Positions 22,001 through 40,939 of a stretch of 64,000 bases of DNA are shown one piece after another. Source of the stretch: Prevotellaceae bacterium (lineage in GTDB: Bacteria; Bacteroidota; Bacteroidia; Bacteroidales; UBA932). The stretch lies in NCBI GenBank assembly GCA_031258195.1, contig JAIRNF010000040.1:1-64000 (forward strand). Reading direction: 5' to 3'. Numbering within the stretch: position 1 is the stretch's first letter; every line of letters starts with the position of its first letter. The notes below the pieces were generated by a model. That model saw only the letters and a program-made list of their open reading frames with translations, did not search any database and was not told the DNA's origin. Position numbers and translations under genes: made by a program.

Positions 22001-23404
22001 ATGGAATATGGCGAAATCGATATAACATCTCTAATTGAGCGTTATGAAAAAATGCATCAAGATGGACAGTTATGCTATTTTGATGTAGAAGATTTCGAGT
22101 CTATAATATCTTATTACCTATACAAAAATAGTACCGAACGAGCGCGCATAGCAATAGACGATGGTATGCATCTTCACCCGAGTTCGCTGGAGTTGAAGCT
22201 AAAGCTAATCGAAGTTGAGGTTGAGGATGAATGTTGGCAGAATGCTCTCTCGTTAATAGGCGAAATAAAAAGTTACGCGTTTAGCTTCAAGGCGGAAATA
22301 GCTGTGCTTGAAGCGCGGGCTATGCTTTTGCAGCAAAATGTTGATGAAGCAATAGCTACAATAGACCATTTGATTGAAACTCACCTTAATGTAAAAGATA
22401 TAGATTTACAAACGTTTGCCGGAGATTTACTTAATGTTTCTGAGTACGCGCATGCCGCCCGTTATCTTGAGTTTATGCGTAAGCATTATGGTAACATTGG
22501 TAACCTTTTACTTGATTTAGCCTATTGTTATGAAAGGCTAGACGATAGAGAGCGTGCAATTAAAATTTATCAGAAATACCTAGACGAAAATCCGTTTAGC
22601 ACGTTGGCATGGTTTGAGCTGGCAAAGCTATACGAACAAGACAGACAGTATGGCAACGCGATACAAGCGTACGATTTTGTACTAACAATAGATTCTGCGT
22701 ATTTTGATGCATACTGTGCTAAAGCCGACTTACAGATAGCGGAAGGTGAACATATAAAAGCCATAGAAACATTACAAAGCTTATTAGATGAAGATATCAA
22801 CAATACCAGAGCGTTGTATGTAATAGGCGAGTGCTACGAAAAGTTAGGGAGCCTAAATGATGCATTAAAAAGCTATTTACAGCTTATCGAGTATAACGAT
22901 ATCTATGCCGATGCCTATTACGCTGCTGCTTTTGTTTTAAAAGACTTAGGTCGGATTCAGGAGTGCATGTCTTTCTTAAAAAAAGCTACCGTTCTAGAGC
23001 CTACCAGCAGCGAGTATTTTTATGGGCTAGGCAAAGTAATGATGGAGTACGGACAGTATAACGAAGCCATAAACGCCTTTAAAGGTGCGTTAGAGAACGA
23101 TAAGTACGATTTTGAATCGTGGTTGTTATTGGCGGAGTTATATGCATCAATGGATTTCGGTAAGGCATTGTCGCTGCTGGAGCAAGCGTCTGACTATCTT
23201 TACGACATACCAGAGATAAGTTATAGAATTGCTGCGCTATACTTCTTAACCGCCGAGATGGATAAGTGCGTTGAGCATTTCGAACGGGCTGTATTGCTGG
23301 ATGCAGAAAAAGCTGACGGGTTTTTCGATATCTGTCCCGCGGCAAGGCATGATGAAAGAATAATGACAGTATATATAAATAATAAAATCAAAAACTCTAT
23401 ATGA
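22001..23404 (+). CDS. Tetratricopeptide repeat protein
   Basis: 467 aa made largely of TPR units, for example NLLLDLAYCYERLDDRERAIKIYQKYLDENP and TSSEYFYGLGKVMMEYGQYNEAINAFKGAL. No signal peptide is seen, so it is probably a cytoplasmic scaffold. The partners are unknown. Its TGA stop overlaps the ATG of the next gene (ATGA at 23401-23404), which implies translational coupling and shows that TGA is a real stop here. Confidence 0.88.
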   Translation: MEYGEIDITSLIERYEKMHQDGQLCYFDVEDFESIISYYLYKNSTERARIAIDDGMHLHPSSLELKLKLIEVEVEDECWQNALSLIGEIKSYAFSFKAEIAVLEARAMLLQQNVDEAIATIDHLIETHLNVKDIDLQTFAGDLLNVSEYAHAARYLEFMRKHYGNIGNLLLDLAYCYERLDDRERAIKIYQKYLDENPFSTLAWFELAKLYEQDRQYGNAIQAYDFVLTIDSAYFDAYCAKADLQIAEGEHIKAIETLQSLLDEDINNTRALYVIGECYEKLGSLNDALKSYLQLIEYNDIYADAYYAAAFVLKDLGRIQECMSFLKKATVLEPTSSEYFYGLGKVMMEYGQYNEAINAFKGALENDKYDFESWLLLAELYASMDFGKALSLLEQASDYLYDIPEISYRIAALYFLTAEMDKCVEHFERAVLLDAEKADGFFDICPAARHDERIMTVYINNKIKNSI

Positions 23405-24159
23405 TTCACCACCTTCCCCATGTTCCTGAGCGAACAGAAAAACCTAGATCCGTTGGGCTTACAATAGTTATGGATAAAGGGTTAAGCGTTAGAGAAGCAG
23501 AAAACCTAGTCGATTCTTCGGCAGATTATATTGATTTTTTAAAGCTTGGATTTGGGACAGCGCTTGTATCTAAAAAGTTAGAAGAAAAAATTAAAGTATA
23601 TCAATCTGCCGGACTTAAGGTCCATTTTGGCGGAACGATGTTCGAACTTTTTATCATTCGTGGTTTATTTGACGAGTTTCGGAAGCTTGTTGATAGATAT
23701 AATGTTGATCTGGTTGAAGTTTCTGACGGTTCGATGGAAATGAACCACGATCAAAAATGCGAGTATATCCGGATTTTATCAAAAGAGCGTACCGTTATTT
23801 CCGAAGTTGGCTCTAAGCAAGCAGGCGTTATAATTCCTGACGAAGATTGGGTTAGCATGATGAATACGGAGTTGCAAGCCGGCTCATTTAAGGTTATTGC
23901 CGAAGCCCGCGAAGCAGGTAATACCGGTATCTATAAATCTGATGGTTCGCTCGAAAAGCATCTTGTAGATTCTATTATCCATAACGTACCTATAGATGAC
24001 GTAATTTGGGAAACTCCTGCAAAATCACAGCAAGTTGCCTTTGTAAAGATGTTTGGTGCTAATGTAAACCTTGGTAATATTGCTCCTACAGAAGTTATAT
24101 CGCTCGAAACAATTCGCAGAGGGCTTAGAGGTGATACTTTCTTTCACTTTCTTCCGTAA
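23401..24159 (+). CDS. Phosphosulfolactate synthase-like protein (ComA family)
   Basis: A 252-aa TIM-barrel enzyme of the ComA family, which adds sulfite to phosphoenolpyruvate in coenzyme M and sulfolactate synthesis. Family-typical blocks are GLTIVMDKGLS (near residue 20), DYIDFLKLGFGT, VHFGGTMFEL, VEVSDGSMEM and GLRGDTFF at the C-terminus. Bacteroidota carry this homologue without making coenzyme M, so the real product may be a sulfolactate-type or sulfonolipid-related compound. It is translationally coupled to the TPR gene. Confidence 0.85.
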   Translation: MIHHLPHVPERTEKPRSVGLTIVMDKGLSVREAENLVDSSADYIDFLKLGFGTALVSKKLEEKIKVYQSAGLKVHFGGTMFELFIIRGLFDEFRKLVDRYNVDLVEVSDGSMEMNHDQKCEYIRILSKERTVISEVGSKQAGVIIPDEDWVSMMNTELQAGSFKVIAEAREAGNTGIYKSDGSLEKHLVDSIIHNVPIDDVIWETPAKSQQVAFVKMFGANVNLGNIAPTEVISLETIRRGLRGDTFFHFLP

Positions 24160-29345: not shown

Positions 29346-30851
29346 ATGGTGGAAGTTGAAAATGGCTCCAGCCTCGACATCGGTGAAATTCCAATAGTAT
29401 CATACAACCAATTCTATGCCGAAGTGGACAGGTTGATGGAAAATACTAGCGTACACTGCGTATCATACTACGCAGTCCCCTCCGATGATAATTTTACGTT
29501 TTACTGCTGCTTAGCCGATGACGAAGAGCATAAGCTATATGTATTGGGACACGAGCAAAAGAAGGAGAATGTAACCTTACCTTCGTTAACAAGCAAGCAC
29601 TACGCGTTTCATTGTTTCGAACGTGAGATACATGAGAATTTCGGCATAAATTTCTCCGATCATCCCTGGCTAAAACCTATCAGATATCCTGCTAATCGCT
29701 ATAATCAGCATAATGTTATAGAGAATTATCCTTTCTACTCTATTGATAGCGATGAGCTGCACGAAGTTGGTGTAGGACCAATACACGCAGGCGTTATCGA
29801 ACCGGGACATTTTCGCTTTATCTGTAACGGCGAGAAAGTCTTACACCTTGAGATCATGCTTGGTTATCAGCACAGAGGCGTAGAAGAGCTAATGCTGACA
29901 AAGCACACCACCTTGCGACGCTCTATTTTAGTTGAAAGCATTGCGGGAGATACAGCTATTGGGCATTCGTTGGCTTTTGCTATGAATATGGAGTCGTTGG
30001 CGGGTATTGATGTGCCGGATAGATTACAGCTAGAGCGAATAATAGCGTTAGAACTGGAGCGTATTGCTATTCATATCGGAGATACCGGCGCGTTGTGCAT
30101 GGATATTGCCTACCAGCTGGGGCAGGTAGCATGCGAAGCATTGCGAACTATTGTTATCAATACAACACAGCTATGGTGCGGTAATCGGTTTGGTAAAGGG
30201 TTTATTCGTCCGGCAGGGTCTGGCTATCCGCTTACGTCGGAGGTTGCCCGGCAGGTACTCGAAAATATGGAAACGGTAGAACAGCGGTACAAGCAGCTTA
30301 CGAATCGTATTTATACTTTACCCAGCGTACTTGCCCGTTTTGAGGAGATAGGGATACTTACCCCAAAGCAAGCGCATTTAACAGGTATAGTGGGGCCTGC
30401 CGCTAAGGCATCAAGCCATAAGCGCGATATACGTTTTAGCCATCCATTTCAGTACTATAGACACTTAGAGTTCTTGCCTGTAGTAATGGAAACGGGAGAT
30501 GTACTTTCCAGAGCAATGATGCGTAGATACGAAGTTGAGCAATCGATAGAGCTGGTTAAGCTGCTGCTGAAGAAGCGTCAATCAATGATTAGTGAAGAAG
30601 TACCTAAGCCAAACTACAGCTTACAGCTGAAGCCGAATACATTTTCCATCTCGTTGGTAGAAGGTTGGCGAGGAGAGATATGCCATTCTGCTATAACCGA
30701 CGAGAATGGAAATATTGTTCACTATAAAGTAAAAGACCCCTCATTGCACAGTTGGATGGGATTAGCGCTGGCGGTAAGGAATCAGGAGATATCCGATTTT
30801 CCTATATGTAACAAGAGCTTTAACCTGTCTTATTGTGGACACGATTTATAG
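29346..30851 (+). CDS. HycE/NuoCD-like large subunit lacking NiFe ligands
   Basis: 501 aa. The N-terminal third resembles a 30-kDa (NuoC-like) domain, ending around EREIHENFGINFSDHPWLKPIRYP. The rest is the 49-kDa/hydrogenase large-subunit fold (VGVGPIHAGVIEPGHFRF, LEIMLGYQHRGVEELM). The N-terminal CxxC that binds nickel in HycE is replaced by GDTAIGH (201-207), and the C-terminal DPCxxC by PICNKSFNLSYCGHDL (486-501). It therefore should not bind a NiFe site. This resembles energy-converting hydrogenase-related (Ehr) or complex I-type proteins. TAAATTTG at 29312-29319 may be its promoter. The small subunit gene follows after 6 bases. Confidence 0.85.
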   Translation: MVEVENGSSLDIGEIPIVSYNQFYAEVDRLMENTSVHCVSYYAVPSDDNFTFYCCLADDEEHKLYVLGHEQKKENVTLPSLTSKHYAFHCFEREIHENFGINFSDHPWLKPIRYPANRYNQHNVIENYPFYSIDSDELHEVGVGPIHAGVIEPGHFRFICNGEKVLHLEIMLGYQHRGVEELMLTKHTTLRRSILVESIAGDTAIGHSLAFAMNMESLAGIDVPDRLQLERIIALELERIAIHIGDTGALCMDIAYQLGQVACEALRTIVINTTQLWCGNRFGKGFIRPAGSGYPLTSEVARQVLENMETVEQRYKQLTNRIYTLPSVLARFEEIGILTPKQAHLTGIVGPAAKASSHKRDIRFSHPFQYYRHLEFLPVVMETGDVLSRAMMRRYEVEQSIELVKLLLKKRQSMISEEVPKPNYSLQLKPNTFSISLVEGWRGEICHSAITDENGNIVHYKVKDPSLHSWMGLALAVRNQEISDFPICNKSFNLSYCGHDL

Positions 30852-30857
30852 ACGAAT

Positions 30858-31622
30858 ATGTTAAAGGAGTTAAAGATATTATTTAGGCACGGTAAGCAGT
30901 ACATTACAGATTTAGAGGGTGTGGAGCTAACGCCCCTTTTTCGGGGGCGCCCGGAGATCGCCACTACCATTACCGCCTCCGAAGCAAAAGAGTTAGAAGC
31001 GCTATGCCCTACAAATGCTATAAGCGTAGTGCCTTTTTCTATCAACCTTGGCAAGTGCGTTTTTTGTAAAGAGTGCCATTTTTACACCCCTGAAAAAATT
31101 AGGTTTACTAACGATCATAAAATCGCAACCAACGATTTGAATCGGCTCATTGTAAAGGCAGGCGACAGGGATGCCATAGAATTAGACGCGTCGTTAGTTC
31201 GTAAAGAAATAACGTCTTATTTTGGTAAAGCCCTTAAGCTACGGCAGGTTTCGGCAGCCGGAGACAACTCTGCCGAGATGGAGCTGAACGCAGCAGGAAA
31301 CGTAAACTTCGATGTGGGGAGATATGGGATGGAGTTTGTCGCTTCTCCCCGCCACGCCGACGGGTTAGTAATAACAGGACCCATTTCAGAAAATATGGCA
31401 GAACCGCTAGAAATATGCTACAATGCAACGCCATCGCCTAAAATACTGATTTTGGCAGGAACGGATGCCATAAGCGGCGGCATATTTGCCGATAGTAAGG
31501 CGGTTAATCGTGGCTTTTTATCAAAGTATCATGTCGATTTATATGTACCGGGTAACCCGCCGCATCCGTTAACGTTTATCAACGGTATTCTGTCTCTTAC
31601 CGGAAGGTTGAAAAAGAAATAA
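30858..31622 (+). CDS. HyfI/NuoB-like small subunit with a ferredoxin domain, no proximal-cluster cysteines
   Basis: 254 aa. The N-terminal 90 residues carry one ferredoxin-like [4Fe-4S] motif (Cys50 with Cys67, 70, 73). The C-terminal part is clearly NuoB/HyfI-like (FVASPRHADGLVITGPIS). All four ligands of the proximal [4Fe-4S] cluster are gone: SCNGCE-type sequence is GDNSAE (135-140), GxCG is GTDA (201-204) and PGCPP is PGNPP (231-235). The electron path of a normal hydrogenase or complex I would be broken. It is co-transcribed with the large subunit. No membrane subunit genes are in the window. Confidence 0.83.
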   Translation: MLKELKILFRHGKQYITDLEGVELTPLFRGRPEIATTITASEAKELEALCPTNAISVVPFSINLGKCVFCKECHFYTPEKIRFTNDHKIATNDLNRLIVKAGDRDAIELDASLVRKEITSYFGKALKLRQVSAAGDNSAEMELNAAGNVNFDVGRYGMEFVASPRHADGLVITGPISENMAEPLEICYNATPSPKILILAGTDAISGGIFADSKAVNRGFLSKYHVDLYVPGNPPHPLTFINGILSLTGRLKKK

Positions 31623-35065: not shown

Positions 35066-35401
35066 ATGAATGTTGCAACTATAGCTGAGAAGCTGTTTTT
35101 AAAAGTATTCGGCGGAAATGAAGGATTGACAAATGAAGTAAGCGGAGGCTACACATCAGATTTATTAAGCGATGTAATGGGGCATGCCAACGCCGGAGAT
35201 GTTTGGATAACACTTCAAACGCACAAAAACATTGCTGCAATCGCATCGCTAAAAGAAGTTGCCGCAGTTATACTGGTTAAAGGATTTGAGCCCGATACCG
35301 ATACGCTTGCACAAGCTAACGAAGAAGGCATTCCGCTGCTGGGTACTACCGACGAAACGTTTGAAATTACCGGCAAGCTATACCGCTTACTGAACGGATA
35401 A
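35066..35401 (+). CDS. DRTGG-domain protein (second copy, hydrogenase operon)
   Basis: 111 aa, a single DRTGG domain with a longer N-terminal part (MNVATIAEKLFLKVFGGNEGLTNEVSGGYTSDLLSDVMGHANAG) that carries the YTSDLLSDVM family signature. It is preceded by AAGGAG, an unusual purine-rich leader for this genome. It opens the plus-strand part of the hydrogenase operon, 10 bases before the PHP gene. The role is unknown. Confidence 0.87.
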   Translation: MNVATIAEKLFLKVFGGNEGLTNEVSGGYTSDLLSDVMGHANAGDVWITLQTHKNIAAIASLKEVAAVILVKGFEPDTDTLAQANEEGIPLLGTTDETFEITGKLYRLLNG

Positions 35402-35411
35402 AACGCTTACC

Positions 35412-36158
35412 ATGCAAACATTTCGGGCAGACCTTCATATACACACCGTCCTATCTCCATGCGGAGATATGGATATGACCCCCCGAAATATTGTTCAGCT
35501 GGCAAAGCAACGAGGAATGAATATTATCGGGATAAGCGACCATAATTCGACTTTGCAGGCAAACCTAATTAAACAGCTGGGAGAACAAGAAAACATACTA
35601 GCGCTATGCGGTGCAGAGGTAACTACTAAAGAGGAAGTACACTGCCTGTGCTTTTTCGATAAAGACGAAGAACTTTCCTCCTTTCAGCGGTTCATAAACG
35701 AACGACTTTCCAATATTCCAAACAACGTCGATTATTTCGGCTATCAGGTAGTTGTAAACGAGAATAACGAAATACTCGACGAAATAGGCGTGCTGCTTAC
35801 CGCTGCTATAAACGCAAGCATTGAGGAGATAGAAGCGAAAGTGCATAAACTAAACGGTATCTTTATTCCTGCACATATCAACAAATCTCAAAACAGCTTG
35901 CTAAGCCAGCTGGGATTTCTTCCTAAAGGGTTGAATGTAGATGCACTTGAACTGTCGAGGCATATAAAGGTTGAGGACTTTATAGCAACAAACGCATACT
36001 TAAGCAAATACTCATTCATTCAAAGCTCCGACGCTCACTTTCCCGATGATATTGGAAAAGTATATACAGAGTTTTATATGGAAGAGCCTACGTTTAACGA
36101 ACTACGTATGGCGCTCCGCAAAGAAAACGGCAGAAGCATTGTTGGTCACAACGCCTAA
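35412..36158 (+). CDS. PHP-domain metal-dependent phosphoesterase
   Basis: A 248-aa cytoplasmic PHP hydrolase. Motif DLHIHTVLSPCGD (7-19) supplies metal-binding His residues; GISDHNST, PAHINKS and SSDAHFPDDIG complete the active site. PHP proteins of this type are recurrent in hydrogenase operons of anaerobes and may hydrolyse a nucleotide or signal phosphoester. The substrate here is unknown. It is followed after 9 bases by the histidine kinase-like ATPase. Confidence 0.88.
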   Translation: MQTFRADLHIHTVLSPCGDMDMTPRNIVQLAKQRGMNIIGISDHNSTLQANLIKQLGEQENILALCGAEVTTKEEVHCLCFFDKDEELSSFQRFINERLSNIPNNVDYFGYQVVVNENNEILDEIGVLLTAAINASIEEIEAKVHKLNGIFIPAHINKSQNSLLSQLGFLPKGLNVDALELSRHIKVEDFIATNAYLSKYSFIQSSDAHFPDDIGKVYTEFYMEEPTFNELRMALRKENGRSIVGHNA

Positions 36159-36167
36159 TTTGCACAA

Positions 36168-36722
36168 ATGAAAGATCTTTCGCTACATATTCTGGATATT
36201 GTACAAAACTCCATCAGCGCCAAGGCAACGCTGATAGAAATTGAGGTTAACGAGCAGCCAAACAACGATACTTTAACAATTACCATCACCGACAATGGAA
36301 AGGGTATGACACCCGAACAGGTAATAAAAGTTACCGACCCCTACTTTACTTCTCGTACCAGCCGAAAAGTTGGGCTGGGTATTCCTCTTTTTAAACAGAA
36401 TGCCGAACAAAGCGGCGGGAAGCTTAGTATTATATCAACTATAGATGTTGGAACTCAGATTATTGCGCAATTTGGCTATAGCCATATCGACAGACCTGCT
36501 TTAGGCAATATTGCCAACGCCATTAGCTTGCTGGTAATGTCGAACCCCGCTATCGACTTCATTTATACACATACAATTAACAAAGAATCATATCTATTTG
36601 ATACTCGCGAAGTAAAGGAAATTCTAGGCGATACGCCCATTAACAATACACAAGTGGTTAAAATGGTCGAAGGGATGATTGCTGAAAATATTAACGATTT
36701 GCAACAAAATAGTAACAAGTAA
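36168..36722 (+). CDS. Histidine kinase-like ATP-binding protein
   Basis: A 184-aa GHKL ATPase without a dimerisation histidine domain. The N box is LDIVQNSISA (about 10-19), G1 DNGKGMTP, and G2 GLGIPLFKQNAEQSGGKLSI. The C-terminal 60 residues are a separate small domain. It belongs to the hydrogenase locus set (DRTGG, PHP, ATPase) and probably acts as a regulatory kinase or ATP-dependent switch. It is distinct from the shorter RsbW-like ATPase at 14956. Confidence 0.87.
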   Translation: MKDLSLHILDIVQNSISAKATLIEIEVNEQPNNDTLTITITDNGKGMTPEQVIKVTDPYFTSRTSRKVGLGIPLFKQNAEQSGGKLSIISTIDVGTQIIAQFGYSHIDRPALGNIANAISLLVMSNPAIDFIYTHTINKESYLFDTREVKEILGDTPINNTQVVKMVEGMIAENINDLQQNSNK

Positions 36723-36731
36723 ATCGAATTA

Positions 36732-36763
36732 TTTGAAAAATAGTATAACTATCTGTACATTTG
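36732..36763 (+). promoter_or_regulatory. Promoter with -33 and -7 boxes for the hydrogenase structural genes
   Basis: TTTG at 36732-36735 and TACATTTG at 36756-36763 with a 20-base spacer fit the Bacteroidota consensus TTTG-N19-21-TAnnTTTG. It lies 70 bases before the ferredoxin-like gene and could drive the structural genes independently of the accessory genes. Confidence 0.65.
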
Positions 36764-36833
36764 TTCAGTTTAACTATAAATTCATAACAAAAACTAAAAT
36801 AACACTTCAAATTTAAAACTAGGAGGGCTCCCT

Positions 36834-37238
36834 ATGGCAAAAGTAAAGTCTCTGGAAGACTTAAAAAAGTTGAAAACACAGCTGGAGAACAATCTTAACT
36901 TACGCGAGAAAAGCGATAACCCTGATGGGTATGTACAGGTAAAAGTAGCAATGGCGACATGCGGAATCGCTGCTGGTGCTAGAGATGTAATGAATCGCTT
37001 TATAGAAAAAGCCAACGAAGAAAAGGTTGATCTAATTGTAACTCAAACAGGCTGTATGGGCTACTGCTACGCAGAACCAACTGCAGAAGTAAAACTTCCA
37101 GGCAAAGACCCAATAGTATTTGGCTATCTCAATCCTCAGAAGGTTGACGAAATTATTGATAAGTATATCAAGAATGGCGAGCTGATAGAGGGTATCATTC
37201 CCGTTAACTATCAAACAATAGATAAAGACAATATATAG
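36834..37238 (+). CDS. (2Fe-2S) ferredoxin domain protein of the hydrogenase operon
   Basis: A 134-aa thioredoxin-like [2Fe-2S] ferredoxin. Ligands are probably the Cys in MATCGIAAGA (about residue 43) and the Cys residues in TGCMGYCYAEPTAEV. An N-terminal helical stretch (VKSLEDLKKLKTQLENN) precedes them. It carries electrons within, or to, the NADH- and ferredoxin-linked hydrogenase and resembles the small ferredoxin subunit found beside HydB in Bacteroidales and Clostridia. A GGAGGG sequence precedes the ATG. Confidence 0.88.
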   Translation: MAKVKSLEDLKKLKTQLENNLNLREKSDNPDGYVQVKVAMATCGIAAGARDVMNRFIEKANEEKVDLIVTQTGCMGYCYAEPTAEVKLPGKDPIVFGYLNPQKVDEIIDKYIKNGELIEGIIPVNYQTIDKDNI

Positions 37239-37369
37239 CATGGGTGTTGCGGGATTAATCCTCAACCTGTAAAGGAGAGGTAAATCTGTACCCGTTGTAT
37301 GTCGTATATCTTGACCTCACTATAAATACATGTAAATAAACCTAAAACTACTCAACCCTCAGAAAAAAC

Positions 37370-39160
37370 ATGGCACAGTACAAAATGCATTTGTTGGTAT
37401 GCGGAGGTACGGGTTGTAGAGCCTCGGAAAGCACTAAGTTGGTCGAAAATCTACAAACGGTACTTAGAACAAATGGGCTTGACAACGAAGTACAGGTTGT
37501 AACAACCGGATGCTTCGGATTTTGCGAAAAAGGTCCAATTGTAAAAGTAATGCCCGACAATACGTTCTACGTTGAAGTAAAACCTAAAGATGCGGAAGAA
37601 ATTATCAACGAGCACGCAATTAAGGGGCGTAAAGTTAGCCGATTACTATATGTAGATCCCAAAAAAGAAGAGGCGGTAAGCGATTCTAAGCACATGGGGT
37701 TCTACCAAAAGCAAATTCGTATAGCTTTACGTAACTGCGGATTTATTAACCCCGAAAACATCGACGAATATATTGCTCGCGATGGTTATGCCGCCTTAGG
37801 AAAGGCATTGACAGAATATTCTCCGGAGCAAACTATCGATGTTATTAAGAAATCGGGGCTACGCGGACGCGGTGGGGCAGGATTCCCAACAGGATTAAAA
37901 TGGGAGTTTGCATCAAAATATAAAGACAACGAGAAATATGTTGTTTGTAACGCCGACGAAGGAGATCCCGGCGCATTCATGGATCGTTCGATACTTGAAG
38001 GCGACCCCCACTCTATTCTCGAGGCAATGATTATTTGCGGATATTGTATCGGAGCGCGTAACGGCTTAATATATATCAGGGCAGAATATCCGCTGGCTAT
38101 TCAACGGCTAAAAATTGCTATTAATCAGGCAAGAGAATATGGTCTGCTCGGCGAAAACATTCTAGGCTCATCGCTTAGCTTCGATATAGAAATACGTTAC
38201 GGAGCAGGAGCCTTTGTTTGCGGAGAAGAAACCGCATTAATTCACTCAATGGAAGGTGAGCGTGGAGAGCCAACCGTAAAACCACCATTCCCCGCAGAAG
38301 CCGGCTATCTGGGTAAGCCAACCAACGTAAATAACGTTGAAACATACGCCAGCGTTCCCGTTATTATTCTTAAAGGTGCCGATTGGTTCTCTAGCATTGG
38401 AACCGAAAAATCTAAAGGAACAAAAGTATTTGCCCTTGCCGGAAAAATTAATAACGTAGGTCTTATAGAAGTACCAATGGGTACCACTCTACGCGAAGTA
38501 ATTTTTGAAATCGGCGGTGGCATTAAAAACGGTAAAGCTTTTAAAGCAGTACAAACCGGAGGTCCTTCCGGAGGTTGCCTTACTGAAAAACACCTTGATA
38601 TCCCCATTGATTTCGAGAATCTTGTTGCTTCAGGCTCCATGATGGGATCGGGCGGTATGATTGTAATGGACGAGGACGACTGTATGGTTTCCGTTGCAAA
38701 ATTTTACCTTGAGTTTACCGTTGAAGAATCGTGCGGTAAATGCGCCCCATGCCGTGTAGGTAATAAGCGTATGCAAGAAATACTCGATCAACTTACAAAA
38801 GGAAACGGAACTTCCGAGATGATCGATCAGCTCTATAATTTAGGTAGCGTTATTAAAGATACCGCTTTATGTGGGCTCGGGCAAACTTCTCCGAACCCTG
38901 TTCTTTCTACCTTACAGAATTTTCATAACGAATACGTTGCTCATGTTGAGGGTAGATGCCCTGCAGGTCAATGCCGTGCATTTATCCAGTTCTTAATCAT
39001 TGCTAAAAAATGTACCGGCTGTACGGCATGTACAAGAGTTTGTCCGACAGGAGCAATTACAGGCGAAAGAAAGCAACCGCACACTATTGATCAACTTGCC
39101 TGCATAAAGTGCGGAGTATGCCAGCGGAAGTGTAAGTTTAACGCTATTGAAGTAATGTAG
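37370..39160 (+). CDS. hydB: Electron-bifurcating [FeFe] hydrogenase flavoprotein subunit HydB (NuoF-like)
   Basis: 596 aa. An N-terminal [2Fe-2S] thioredoxin-like domain (LLVCGGTGCRASES) is followed by the NADH/FMN-binding NuoF core (GLRGRGGAGFPTGLKWEF, NADEGDPGAFMDR), an SLBB domain, a [4Fe-4S] site (SCGKCAPCRVGNKRM) and two C-terminal [4Fe-4S] motifs (CTGCTACTRVCP and CIKCGVCQRKC). It oxidises or reduces NAD(H) and relays electrons between NADH, ferredoxin and HydA. The stop is 6 bases before the hydA ATG. Confidence 0.95.
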   Translation: MAQYKMHLLVCGGTGCRASESTKLVENLQTVLRTNGLDNEVQVVTTGCFGFCEKGPIVKVMPDNTFYVEVKPKDAEEIINEHAIKGRKVSRLLYVDPKKEEAVSDSKHMGFYQKQIRIALRNCGFINPENIDEYIARDGYAALGKALTEYSPEQTIDVIKKSGLRGRGGAGFPTGLKWEFASKYKDNEKYVVCNADEGDPGAFMDRSILEGDPHSILEAMIICGYCIGARNGLIYIRAEYPLAIQRLKIAINQAREYGLLGENILGSSLSFDIEIRYGAGAFVCGEETALIHSMEGERGEPTVKPPFPAEAGYLGKPTNVNNVETYASVPVIILKGADWFSSIGTEKSKGTKVFALAGKINNVGLIEVPMGTTLREVIFEIGGGIKNGKAFKAVQTGGPSGGCLTEKHLDIPIDFENLVASGSMMGSGGMIVMDEDDCMVSVAKFYLEFTVEESCGKCAPCRVGNKRMQEILDQLTKGNGTSEMIDQLYNLGSVIKDTALCGLGQTSPNPVLSTLQNFHNEYVAHVEGRCPAGQCRAFIQFLIIAKKCTGCTACTRVCPTGAITGERKQPHTIDQLACIKCGVCQRKCKFNAIEVM

Positions 39161-39166
39161 AGAACC

Positions 39167-40939
39167 ATGGAGAAAATAAAGCTAACTATAGATAAAAGAA
39201 CGGTTGAGGTGGAGAAAGGCACCACCGTTTACCAAGCAGCAAAGCAAATAGGAGTAAATATTCCTGTGCTATGCTATATGAATCTGGGGCATTTGGGTAT
39301 AGAGAACCGCCCCGGCGGATGTAGAGTTTGCGTTGTTGAGGTTGAAGGACGTAAGAACCTAGCCCCTTCGTGCTCTACGCTATGTACAGAGGGTATGGTT
39401 GTAAAAACTAACAGCCCACGCGTACTTAATGCACGTAAAACAGTTCTAGAGCTAATTCTTTCAGACCATCCGAAAGATTGTTTAGTCTGCGCAAAATCGG
39501 GCAACTGCGAGCTGCAAGAGCTGGCTATTAAGCTGGGGATCCGCGAAATACCCGGAGAGAAATATTCAGAAATGTCAACCTATCGTCCCGATACATCACC
39601 ATCTATTATTCGCGATTTGGATAAATGCGTAATGTGCAGACGATGCGAAACCATGTGTAATAAAGTGCAGACTGTAGGAGCGCTAAATGCCATTAACCGT
39701 GGCTTTATGGCTGTTGTAGCACCTGCTTTTGAGCGTAATTTAGAAAATTCTCCTTGTACATTCTGCGGTCAATGCGTTGCAGTATGCCCCACCGGAGCGC
39801 TTACAGAAGTTAACCATACCAACCAGCTAATAAGAGCGCTTGCCGATCCTACAAAAACGGTAGTTGTACAAACAGCTCCTGCCGTACGTGCAGCATTGGG
39901 CGAAGAGTTTGGAATGGAACCGGGAACGTTAGTTACCGGTAAAATGGCTGCCGCATTACGTACTCTTGGCTTCGACTATGTATTCGACACAGATTTTGCT
40001 GCCGACCTTACCATTATGGAGGAAGGAACGGAGTTGCTTAACCGCATCGGTAAGTTTTTAGAAGGCGATAAGGATGTAAAACTCCCTATCTTAACATCAT
40101 GTTGCCCTGCATGGGTAAACTTCTTTGAATGTAACTACCCCGATATGCTGGATGTGCCGTCAACCGCACGCTCTCCGCAACAAATGTTCGGGTCGGTTGC
40201 CAAAGCATACCTTGCCGATAAGCTGGGTGTAAAGCGCGAAGATATGGTAGTAGTGTCAATAATGCCTTGCTTGGCTAAGAAATACGAGTGCCAGCGCGAT
40301 GAGTTTAAGATAGATGGTAATCCAGATGTAGATTTCTCAATCTCTACCAGAGAGCTTGCAGCACTCATAAAAGGTGCGAACATCAGCTTTACCAGCCTTC
40401 CTGACGAAGACTTCGATAATCCTTTAGGAGAATCGACAGGTGCAGCAGTAATATTCGGTGCTACAGGTGGAGTTATTGAAGCAGCAGTAAGAACTGCTTA
40501 CGAAGTTTTCACCAAGAAAAAGTTGGATAGAGTTGATTTTACCGAGCTACGTGGCTTGGAGGGAATCCGTTCTGCAAGCATAGACTTTAACGGAACTACC
40601 ATAAATATTGGTATTGCCCACGGTTTAGGTAATGCGCGTAAGCTGCTGGATGGCATCCGTGCAGGTATGTACAACTTCCACGCAATAGAAATAATGGCAT
40701 GCCCCGGTGGATGTATTGGTGGAGGCGGTCAGCCTTACCACCATGGTAACAGCGAAATTATTAAGGCTCGTCATCAAGCTATTTATCGCGAAGATGCCGA
40801 AAAGCCTATACGTAAATCGCACGAAAACCCATACATCGTTAAACTTTACGAAGAGTTCTTAGGAAGCCCGATGAGCGAAAAAGCGCATCATTTGCTTCAC
40901 ACCCACTACTTCGATAAAAGCAAACAAAAGCAAGATTAA
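39167..40939 (+). CDS. hydA: Catalytic [FeFe] hydrogenase HydA (group A)
   Basis: 590 aa. An N-terminal [2Fe-2S] domain (PVLCYMNLG, GGCRVCVVEVEG), a His-Cys [4Fe-4S] site (DHPKDCLVCAKSGNCELQ) and two [4Fe-4S] motifs (CVMCRRCETMC and CTFCGQCVAVCP) lead to the H-cluster domain. All three H-cluster loops are intact: TSCCPAW, MPCLAKKYE and MACPGGCIGGGGQP. It makes or consumes H2, coupled through HydB and HydC to NAD(H) and ferredoxin. No maturases (HydE, HydF, HydG) are in the window. Confidence 0.96.
   Translation: MEKIKLTIDKRTVEVEKGTTVYQAAKQIGVNIPVLCYMNLGHLGIENRPGGCRVCVVEVEGRKNLAPSCSTLCTEGMVVKTNSPRVLNARKTVLELILSDHPKDCLVCAKSGNCELQELAIKLGIREIPGEKYSEMSTYRPDTSPSIIRDLDKCVMCRRCETMCNKVQTVGALNAINRGFMAVVAPAFERNLENSPCTFCGQCVAVCPTGALTEVNHTNQLIRALADPTKTVVVQTAPAVRAALGEEFGMEPGTLVTGKMAAALRTLGFDYVFDTDFAADLTIMEEGTELLNRIGKFLEGDKDVKLPILTSCCPAWVNFFECNYPDMLDVPSTARSPQQMFGSVAKAYLADKLGVKREDMVVVSIMPCLAKKYECQRDEFKIDGNPDVDFSISTRELAALIKGANISFTSLPDEDFDNPLGESTGAAVIFGATGGVIEAAVRTAYEVFTKKKLDRVDFTELRGLEGIRSASIDFNGTTINIGIAHGLGNARKLLDGIRAGMYNFHAIEIMACPGGCIGGGGQPYHHGNSEIIKARHQAIYREDAEKPIRKSHENPYIVKLYEEFLGSPMSEKAHHLLHTHYFDKSKQKQD

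Follow-up and report, generated by a model that had tools for sequence, protein, structure and literature searches.

The hyfG-hyfHI locus

The window (the whole 64,000-nucleotide stretch analyzed here, from a Prevotellaceae bacterium) carries hyfG and hyfHI as a tandem pair on its forward strand (Table 1). Matches of HyfG to the Pfam families Complex1_49kDa (1.7e-29) and Complex1_30kDa (1.4e-8), together with the Oxidored_q6 match of HyfHI, confirm the original identification of a hydrogenase/complex I-like core pair, and the best PDB sequence match of HyfG was E. coli HycE (7z0s_E, 1.8e-37). AlphaFold2 models built from alignments reached a mean pLDDT of 87.0 for HyfG and 91.8 for HyfHI; with HycE, the former gave an alignment of 473 residues (Z 39.6, 2.7 Å), and with HycG (7z0t_G) the latter gave one of 139 residues (Z 18.2, 2.2 Å), indicating that both folds have been kept despite the loss of metal ligands. 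This Bacteroidales genome also carries, at positions 23401-24159 of the window, a ComA-like phosphosulfolactate synthase gene (Pfam PF02679, 5e-83), with an NCBIfam score that falls short of the cut-off.

Table 1. Features of the core pair and of the hydrogenase cluster downstream, by position in the window.
Feature	Positions	Strand	Basis
hyfG, fused NuoC/NuoD (HycE/HyfG-like) large subunit without NiFe ligands, 501 aa	29346..30851	+	Pfam PF00329 and PF00346
IAGDTAIGH, first NiFe CxxC site of HyfG, both cysteines replaced (A, T)	29940..29966	+	alignment with N2- and NiFe-bearing relatives
NKSFNLSYCGHDL, HyfG C-terminus replacing DPCxxC	30810..30848	+	alignment
hyfHI, one-cluster ferredoxin domain (HycF/HyfH/NuoI-like) fused to NuoB/HycG-like small subunit, 254 aa	30858..31622	+	Pfam PF01058 (Oxidored_q6), 1.1e-19
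Retained [4Fe-4S] ligands C50, C67, C70, C73 (N6b type) of HyfHI	31005..31076	+	all four in 104/104 N2-less homologues
GDNSAE, with D136 and A139 at proximal ligand positions 1 and 2 of HyfHI	31260..31277	+	alignment
GTDA, with D203 at proximal ligand position 3 of HyfHI	31458..31469	+	alignment
PGNPP, with N233 at proximal ligand position 4 of HyfHI	31548..31562	+	alignment
DRTGG-PHP-HATPase-NuoE-HydB-HydA ([FeFe] hydrogenase) cluster, possible unproven partner	35066..40939	+	Pfam; same NuoE-HydB-HydA in L069

Alignment with hydrogenases of the same order placed IAGDTAIGH of HyfG opposite ICGICSxSH, and NLSYCGHDL at its end opposite DPCxxCTxR. The position and motif originally assigned to the first NiFe site were thereby confirmed, as was the absence of DPCxxC from the C-terminus. 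Every NiFe ligand is gone, and HyfG does not have the CxxC...CxxC pattern of group 4 [NiFe] hydrogenases (Hyc/Hyf/Mbh/Ech).

In HyfHI, D136, A139, D203, and N233 replace the four proximal (N2) cysteines, leaving no cysteine at the site, and the four-cysteine proximal [4Fe-4S] set of a group 4 [NiFe] hydrogenase is lacking. The ferredoxin part holds one complete [4Fe-4S] set, the second ferredoxin cluster (N6a type) also being gone. Thus the loss of all four proximal cysteines and the retention of a ferredoxin-type cluster (C50/C67/C70/C73) were both called correctly from the sequence, the loss of the N6a-type cluster having gone unmentioned, and the ligand alignment supports a core pair unable to hold either NiFe or a normal proximal cluster. 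Expressed in terms of complex I, whose equivalent subunits we take to be NuoI and NuoB, HyfHI retains the N6b-type cluster and has lost N6a and N2.

Conservation of the ligand replacements

A clear HyfG orthologue is present in 69 of 295 genomes of the order. An alignment scan of named genomes with HyfHI returned 541 relatives; a single-sequence scan of genome contigs found none. The best 80 of the 541 come from Bacteroidales, Chitinophagaceae (Niastella vici, Flavihumibacter profundi), Chryseolinea serpens, and Saprospiraceae, and also include records titled Delongbacteria and Marinimicrobia.

Conservation was counted over 104 distinct HyfHI rows lacking the proximal ligand set (N2-less), from Bacteroidota and a few other phyla. 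Ligand position 1 is an acid (Asp or Glu) in all 104, position 3 is Asp in 101, and position 4 is Asn in 103; position 2, Ala in the window copy, is Cys in 70. The same rows show no variation at ten further residues (K127, R129, E140, E142, N148, R155, R165, H166, D168, and H236). Estimated for close pairs by the Nei-Gojobori method, dN/dS ranges from 0.015 to 0.25. Near-fixed replacements combined with such ratios show constraint, not decay. The original prediction had named two findings that would undo it, (i) close homologues retaining the cysteines, which would make this copy a degenerate outlier, and (ii) dN/dS near 1; instead, the loss is common to the nearest 104 homologues, which rules out the outlier, and selection is purifying. 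Its description of the proximal loss as unusual stands relative to known Ehr complexes, hydrogenases, and complex I, but not within Bacteroidota, where this is the common form.

The membrane arm is encoded at a second locus

The pair had been described as unaccompanied by membrane subunits, which is true of the window but not of the genome. Among 119 distinct loci, 110 have hyfF immediately upstream of hyfG, and the usual gene order, where flanks allow it to be read, is hyfB-C-E-F-G-HI. In the window genome this operon is split, and the search for HyfB/HyfC/HyfF-like genes that had been proposed located an intact hyfBCEF set on another contig (G000:C30:43877-49123; L074 5878-11124, minus strand). 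This genome encodes just two PF00361 proteins, HyfB and HyfF, and a single PF00146 protein, HyfC; HyfG and HyfHI are its sole NuoD and NuoB homologues. No complex I was found there, the two PF00361 proteins falling short of a full set of antiporter subunits L/M/N; Rnf/Nqr-type genes are also present (two PF03116 matches). All genomes queried for hyfC, including those with split pairs, have it (ten handles, two apparently representing one genome), and the HyfC proteins closest to that of the window genome (64% and 60%) belong to termite-gut Prevotellaceae whose pairs are also split. Together with the set on C30, this rules out an orphan pair without a membrane arm. On the grounds of homology and single-copy occurrence, we infer that HyfG and HyfHI of the window assemble with HyfBCEF of C30 into one complex.

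A transposase-like frame (L074 11316-11924) just upstream of hyfB is a possible trace of operon rearrangement. Many N2-less operons (L088, L097, L110, L114, L116, and others) have two tandem hyfB-like antiporter subunits; the window genome has one.

We examined positions of HyfB and HyfF that align with the channel Lys and Glu residues of complex I antiporter subunits. In the N2-less clade, E138, K217, K248, K294, K345, and E400 of HyfB and E122, K208, K326, and E381 of HyfF are conserved at or near 100%, and E183, R186, D190, H195, E197, H202, and E203 in the HyfC loop are invariant. Judged by these residues, the ion-moving half of the complex is under full constraint.

N2-bearing relatives

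Seventeen fusion-type rows have all four proximal cysteines: nine belong to a related clade within the same phylum, and the others are L166-L168, L162, L018, L049, L170, and L171. Those with a readable large subunit share the GDT/GDS..H and LSYxG site of HyfG, so loss of the NiFe site probably preceded that of N2. In L166-L168, N2 is kept and the N6a ligands are gone, which shows that partly wired forms exist.

The HyfHI tree unites all 104 N2-less fusions in one clade (support 100/98), whereas in the HyfG tree N2-bearing L018 and L049 fall inside the N2-less clade. A tree built without the ligand columns was poorly resolved, and the placement of L018, L049, and L162 is unsettled both there and in the HyfG tree. 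A single loss of N2 therefore fits the HyfHI tree but not the HyfG tree, and there may have been more than one loss, or regains. L033, a small subunit-HyfB-C-E-F-G operon, is an independent N2-less case that points the same way as the window clade: its proximal site reads D/C/D/D, and its small subunit lacks a ferredoxin domain, although a ferredoxin subunit could be encoded separately.

At L062 (G246:C140, 11452-16023), NuoEF-fusion, HoxU-, HoxY-, and HoxH-like genes come after N2-bearing hyfBCEFG-HI in the same orientation, which places an Ehr-type complex beside a NAD-type [NiFe] hydrogenase, an arrangement reminiscent of the proposed ancestry of complex I. SulP and HTH-PTS_EIIA genes lie just upstream of N2-bearing hyf operons at L186-L189, L192, and L199. 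In a comparison of the flanks of N2-less loci, no steady neighbor gene was found. Following hyfHI in L116 (9750-10310) and L087 (2424-2966) is a small protein with membrane-like helices at its start and no Pfam match, which by blastp resembles part of SulP, probably the STAS part.

Proposed mechanism and alternatives

The architecture is secure; the mechanism proposed here, including ion translocation and its direction, the way it is coupled, and what the single cluster does, is inferred. Our preferred reading, which we hold tentatively and rate somewhat short of an even chance, is that HyfB-C-E-F-G-HI form a six-subunit Ehr-type complex acting as an ion-gradient-coupled, conformationally driven device whose electron wire has been cut. 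HyfG and HyfHI would be its soluble arm, the membrane arm being supplied by hyfBCEF on the other contig. As the half-channel and E-channel residues are kept, the membrane arm would still translocate ions (H+ and/or Na+), and conformational changes would link the movement of these ions in HyfB, HyfF, and HyfC to HyfG/HyfHI. Electrons would be unable to reach the old NiFe/quinone site, since the Ni ligands are gone and so are the proximal (N2) cluster and the first ferredoxin cluster; the one [4Fe-4S] cluster that remains in HyfHI may have a structural or a redox-sensing role. The relay of formate hydrogenlyase runs through HycF and the proximal cluster in steps each shorter than 14 Å (PMC9474812); because that relay needs the proximal cluster, its removal would cut the remaining cluster off from the HyfG site, from which coupling without electron flow through the core follows as a plausible consequence. 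DAB2 (PMC13144422) provides a precedent, in that an antiporter subunit of the complex I type there drives a reaction that is not redox chemistry.

Support for a non-redox device thus comes from the patterned, near-fixed loss of ligands with a lone cluster present in all 104 rows, from the operon layout, the sole hyfBCEF set, the intact ion-path residues, and the low dN/dS, and from the L033 operon and the DAB2 precedent. The earlier suggestion, that of an ion-translocating complex whose electrons no longer pass through this site, is consistent with all of the data. The strict conservation of the lone cluster, however, counts against a non-redox reading, as it is more easily explained if the cluster is redox active, and the presence of the same HyfG site in N2-bearing sisters means that this site may have electron-requiring chemistry in those sisters. 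In a bolder version, which strikes us as doubtful, a large Bacteroidota clade (and a few other phyla) would possess a complex I-superfamily machine without any core electron transfer, coupled to an ion gradient, in which Asp, Asp, and Asn have turned the former N2/NiFe region into a polar or hard-metal site.

The strongest alternative is a pump powered by oxidation and reduction of the single cluster alone, in which ferredoxin or the neighboring [FeFe] hydrogenase HydABC exchanges electrons with the HyfHI [4Fe-4S] cluster, the old active site being unused. Besides the fully conserved cluster cysteines (104/104), it can draw on several gene neighborhoods: HydABC lies ~5-8 kb downstream in the window on the same strand, L069 has NuoE-HydB-HydA immediately after hyfHI in the same orientation, and a HoxEF-U-Y-H hydrogenase follows hyfHI in N2-bearing L062. 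HydA is also somewhat commoner in genomes with Hyf (57/69 versus 141/226, p 0.002). But direct adjacency of HydABC was seen in one relative only, 12 of the 69 carriers have no HydA, which rules out obligatory coupling to the [FeFe] hydrogenase, and the relatives include Niastella and Chryseolinea, which are aerobes. Moreover, a one-electron cluster without an exit path would turn over only if both its donor and its acceptor docked there, and we regard such a pump as unlikely. An electron path could alternatively survive through a rebuilt N2 site, its Asp and Asn (with Cys in many relatives) still holding an Fe-S cluster or other metal. [4Fe-4S] clusters with one Asp ligand do exist, and the near-fixation of acid, acid, and amide at ligands 1, 3, and 4, with Cys at ligand 2 in 70/104, suggests function; yet the window copy has D/A/D/N with zero cysteines, a ligand set for which we know of no Fe-S cluster, and the NiFe ligands and N6a cluster were lost too, making this explanation very unlikely.

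The remaining alternatives put the function elsewhere or deny it. Ion flux through the complex might power or regulate SulP-type bicarbonate/anion transport, or vectorial CO2 hydration. Just upstream of hyfB in N2-bearing sister loci, SulP occurs in 5 and HTH-PTS_EIIA in 11; L199 has a SulP-STAS-EIIA fusion placed between its hyfG and hyfHI, and SulP directly follows hyfHI in N2-less L135/L137 and N2-bearing L191 (Pfam on L137). The DAB2 precedent (PMC13144422) counts for carbon uptake as well. SulP is nevertheless absent from the window genome, a linked full SulP occurs in only 2 of ~104 N2-less loci, and across the order it is strongly anti-correlated with the complex (9/69 versus 137/226 genomes; Fisher 9e-13, uncorrected for phylogeny or lifestyle), which could reflect lifestyle or functional replacement. 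SulP as an obligatory partner is thus ruled out, and a role in carbon or anion uptake seems distinctly improbable, if somewhat less so than a rebuilt cluster site. Finally, a hydrogenase remnant decaying under relaxed selection might be imagined from the simultaneous loss of several metal sites and the split operon of the window genome, but the low dN/dS in close pairs, the open frames, and the residues invariant across many families already refute it, and we give it almost no weight.

Significance and comparison with known systems

The way in which electron transfer powers ion pumping in complex I and its relatives is a matter of continuing debate. A natural, widely distributed complex that has the pumping machinery and the adaptor subunits but neither the catalytic site nor the terminal cluster lends itself to asking what the adaptor can do in the absence of electrons, and the N2-bearing sisters of the same operon are a built-in comparison. 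If the Asp/Asp/Asn non-redox machine were real, nature would have uncoupled the ion-pumping half of complex I from redox chemistry within a full-length assembly. For annotation, hydrogenase-4 or NADH dehydrogenase labels in many Bacteroidota should not be taken as H2 or NADH metabolism.

In the literature, Ehr complexes are defined as group 4-like without Ni-Fe ligands (PMC6349859, PMC7304191). By its predicted subunits, the HyfBCEFGHI complex is an Ehr complex under this definition: the large subunit is homologous to those of group 4 [NiFe] hydrogenases (HycE sequence and model matches), the Ni- and Fe-coordinating residues are absent, and antiporter-like and NuoH-like membrane subunits are encoded with the complex, in the window genome at the second locus. 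For Ehr, charge translocation coupled to cytoplasmic redox chemistry is suspected, not proven. As far as the available text goes, Ehr shares with the complex the hydrogenase-like large and small subunits, both kinds of membrane subunit, and the missing Ni-Fe ligands; unlike Ehr as described there, where N2 loss is not mentioned, the whole clade studied here is also without N2 and the first ferredoxin cluster and has its ferredoxin domain fused to the small subunit. In the papers covered by our literature search, no Ehr without the proximal cluster is described.

E. coli formate hydrogenlyase/hydrogenase-4 (Hyc/Hyf; PDB 7z0s) resembles the complex in its subunit set (B/C/E/F/G/I in hydrogenase-4 naming) and folds (Z 39.6 and 18), but here there is no NiFe site, no proximal cluster, and one HycF cluster in place of two, and the operon lacks formate dehydrogenase and HycB. 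With respiratory complex I (NuoB/NuoCD/NuoH/NuoL-N) it shares the core folds and the ion-path Lys and Glu residues of the antiporter-like subunits, whereas N2, the N module, and the NuoD motif around the quinone-site Tyr are absent, so that the N2 cluster and quinone site that mark NuoB and NuoD of complex I are both missing. DAB2/MpsAB (PMC13144422, PMC6689103) provides a precedent for the way the complex may work, joining a NuoL-like subunit, a complex I-type ion channel, to non-redox cytoplasmic chemistry, although its DabA (PF10070) is carbonic anhydrase-like and belongs to a different family from HyfG and HyfHI.
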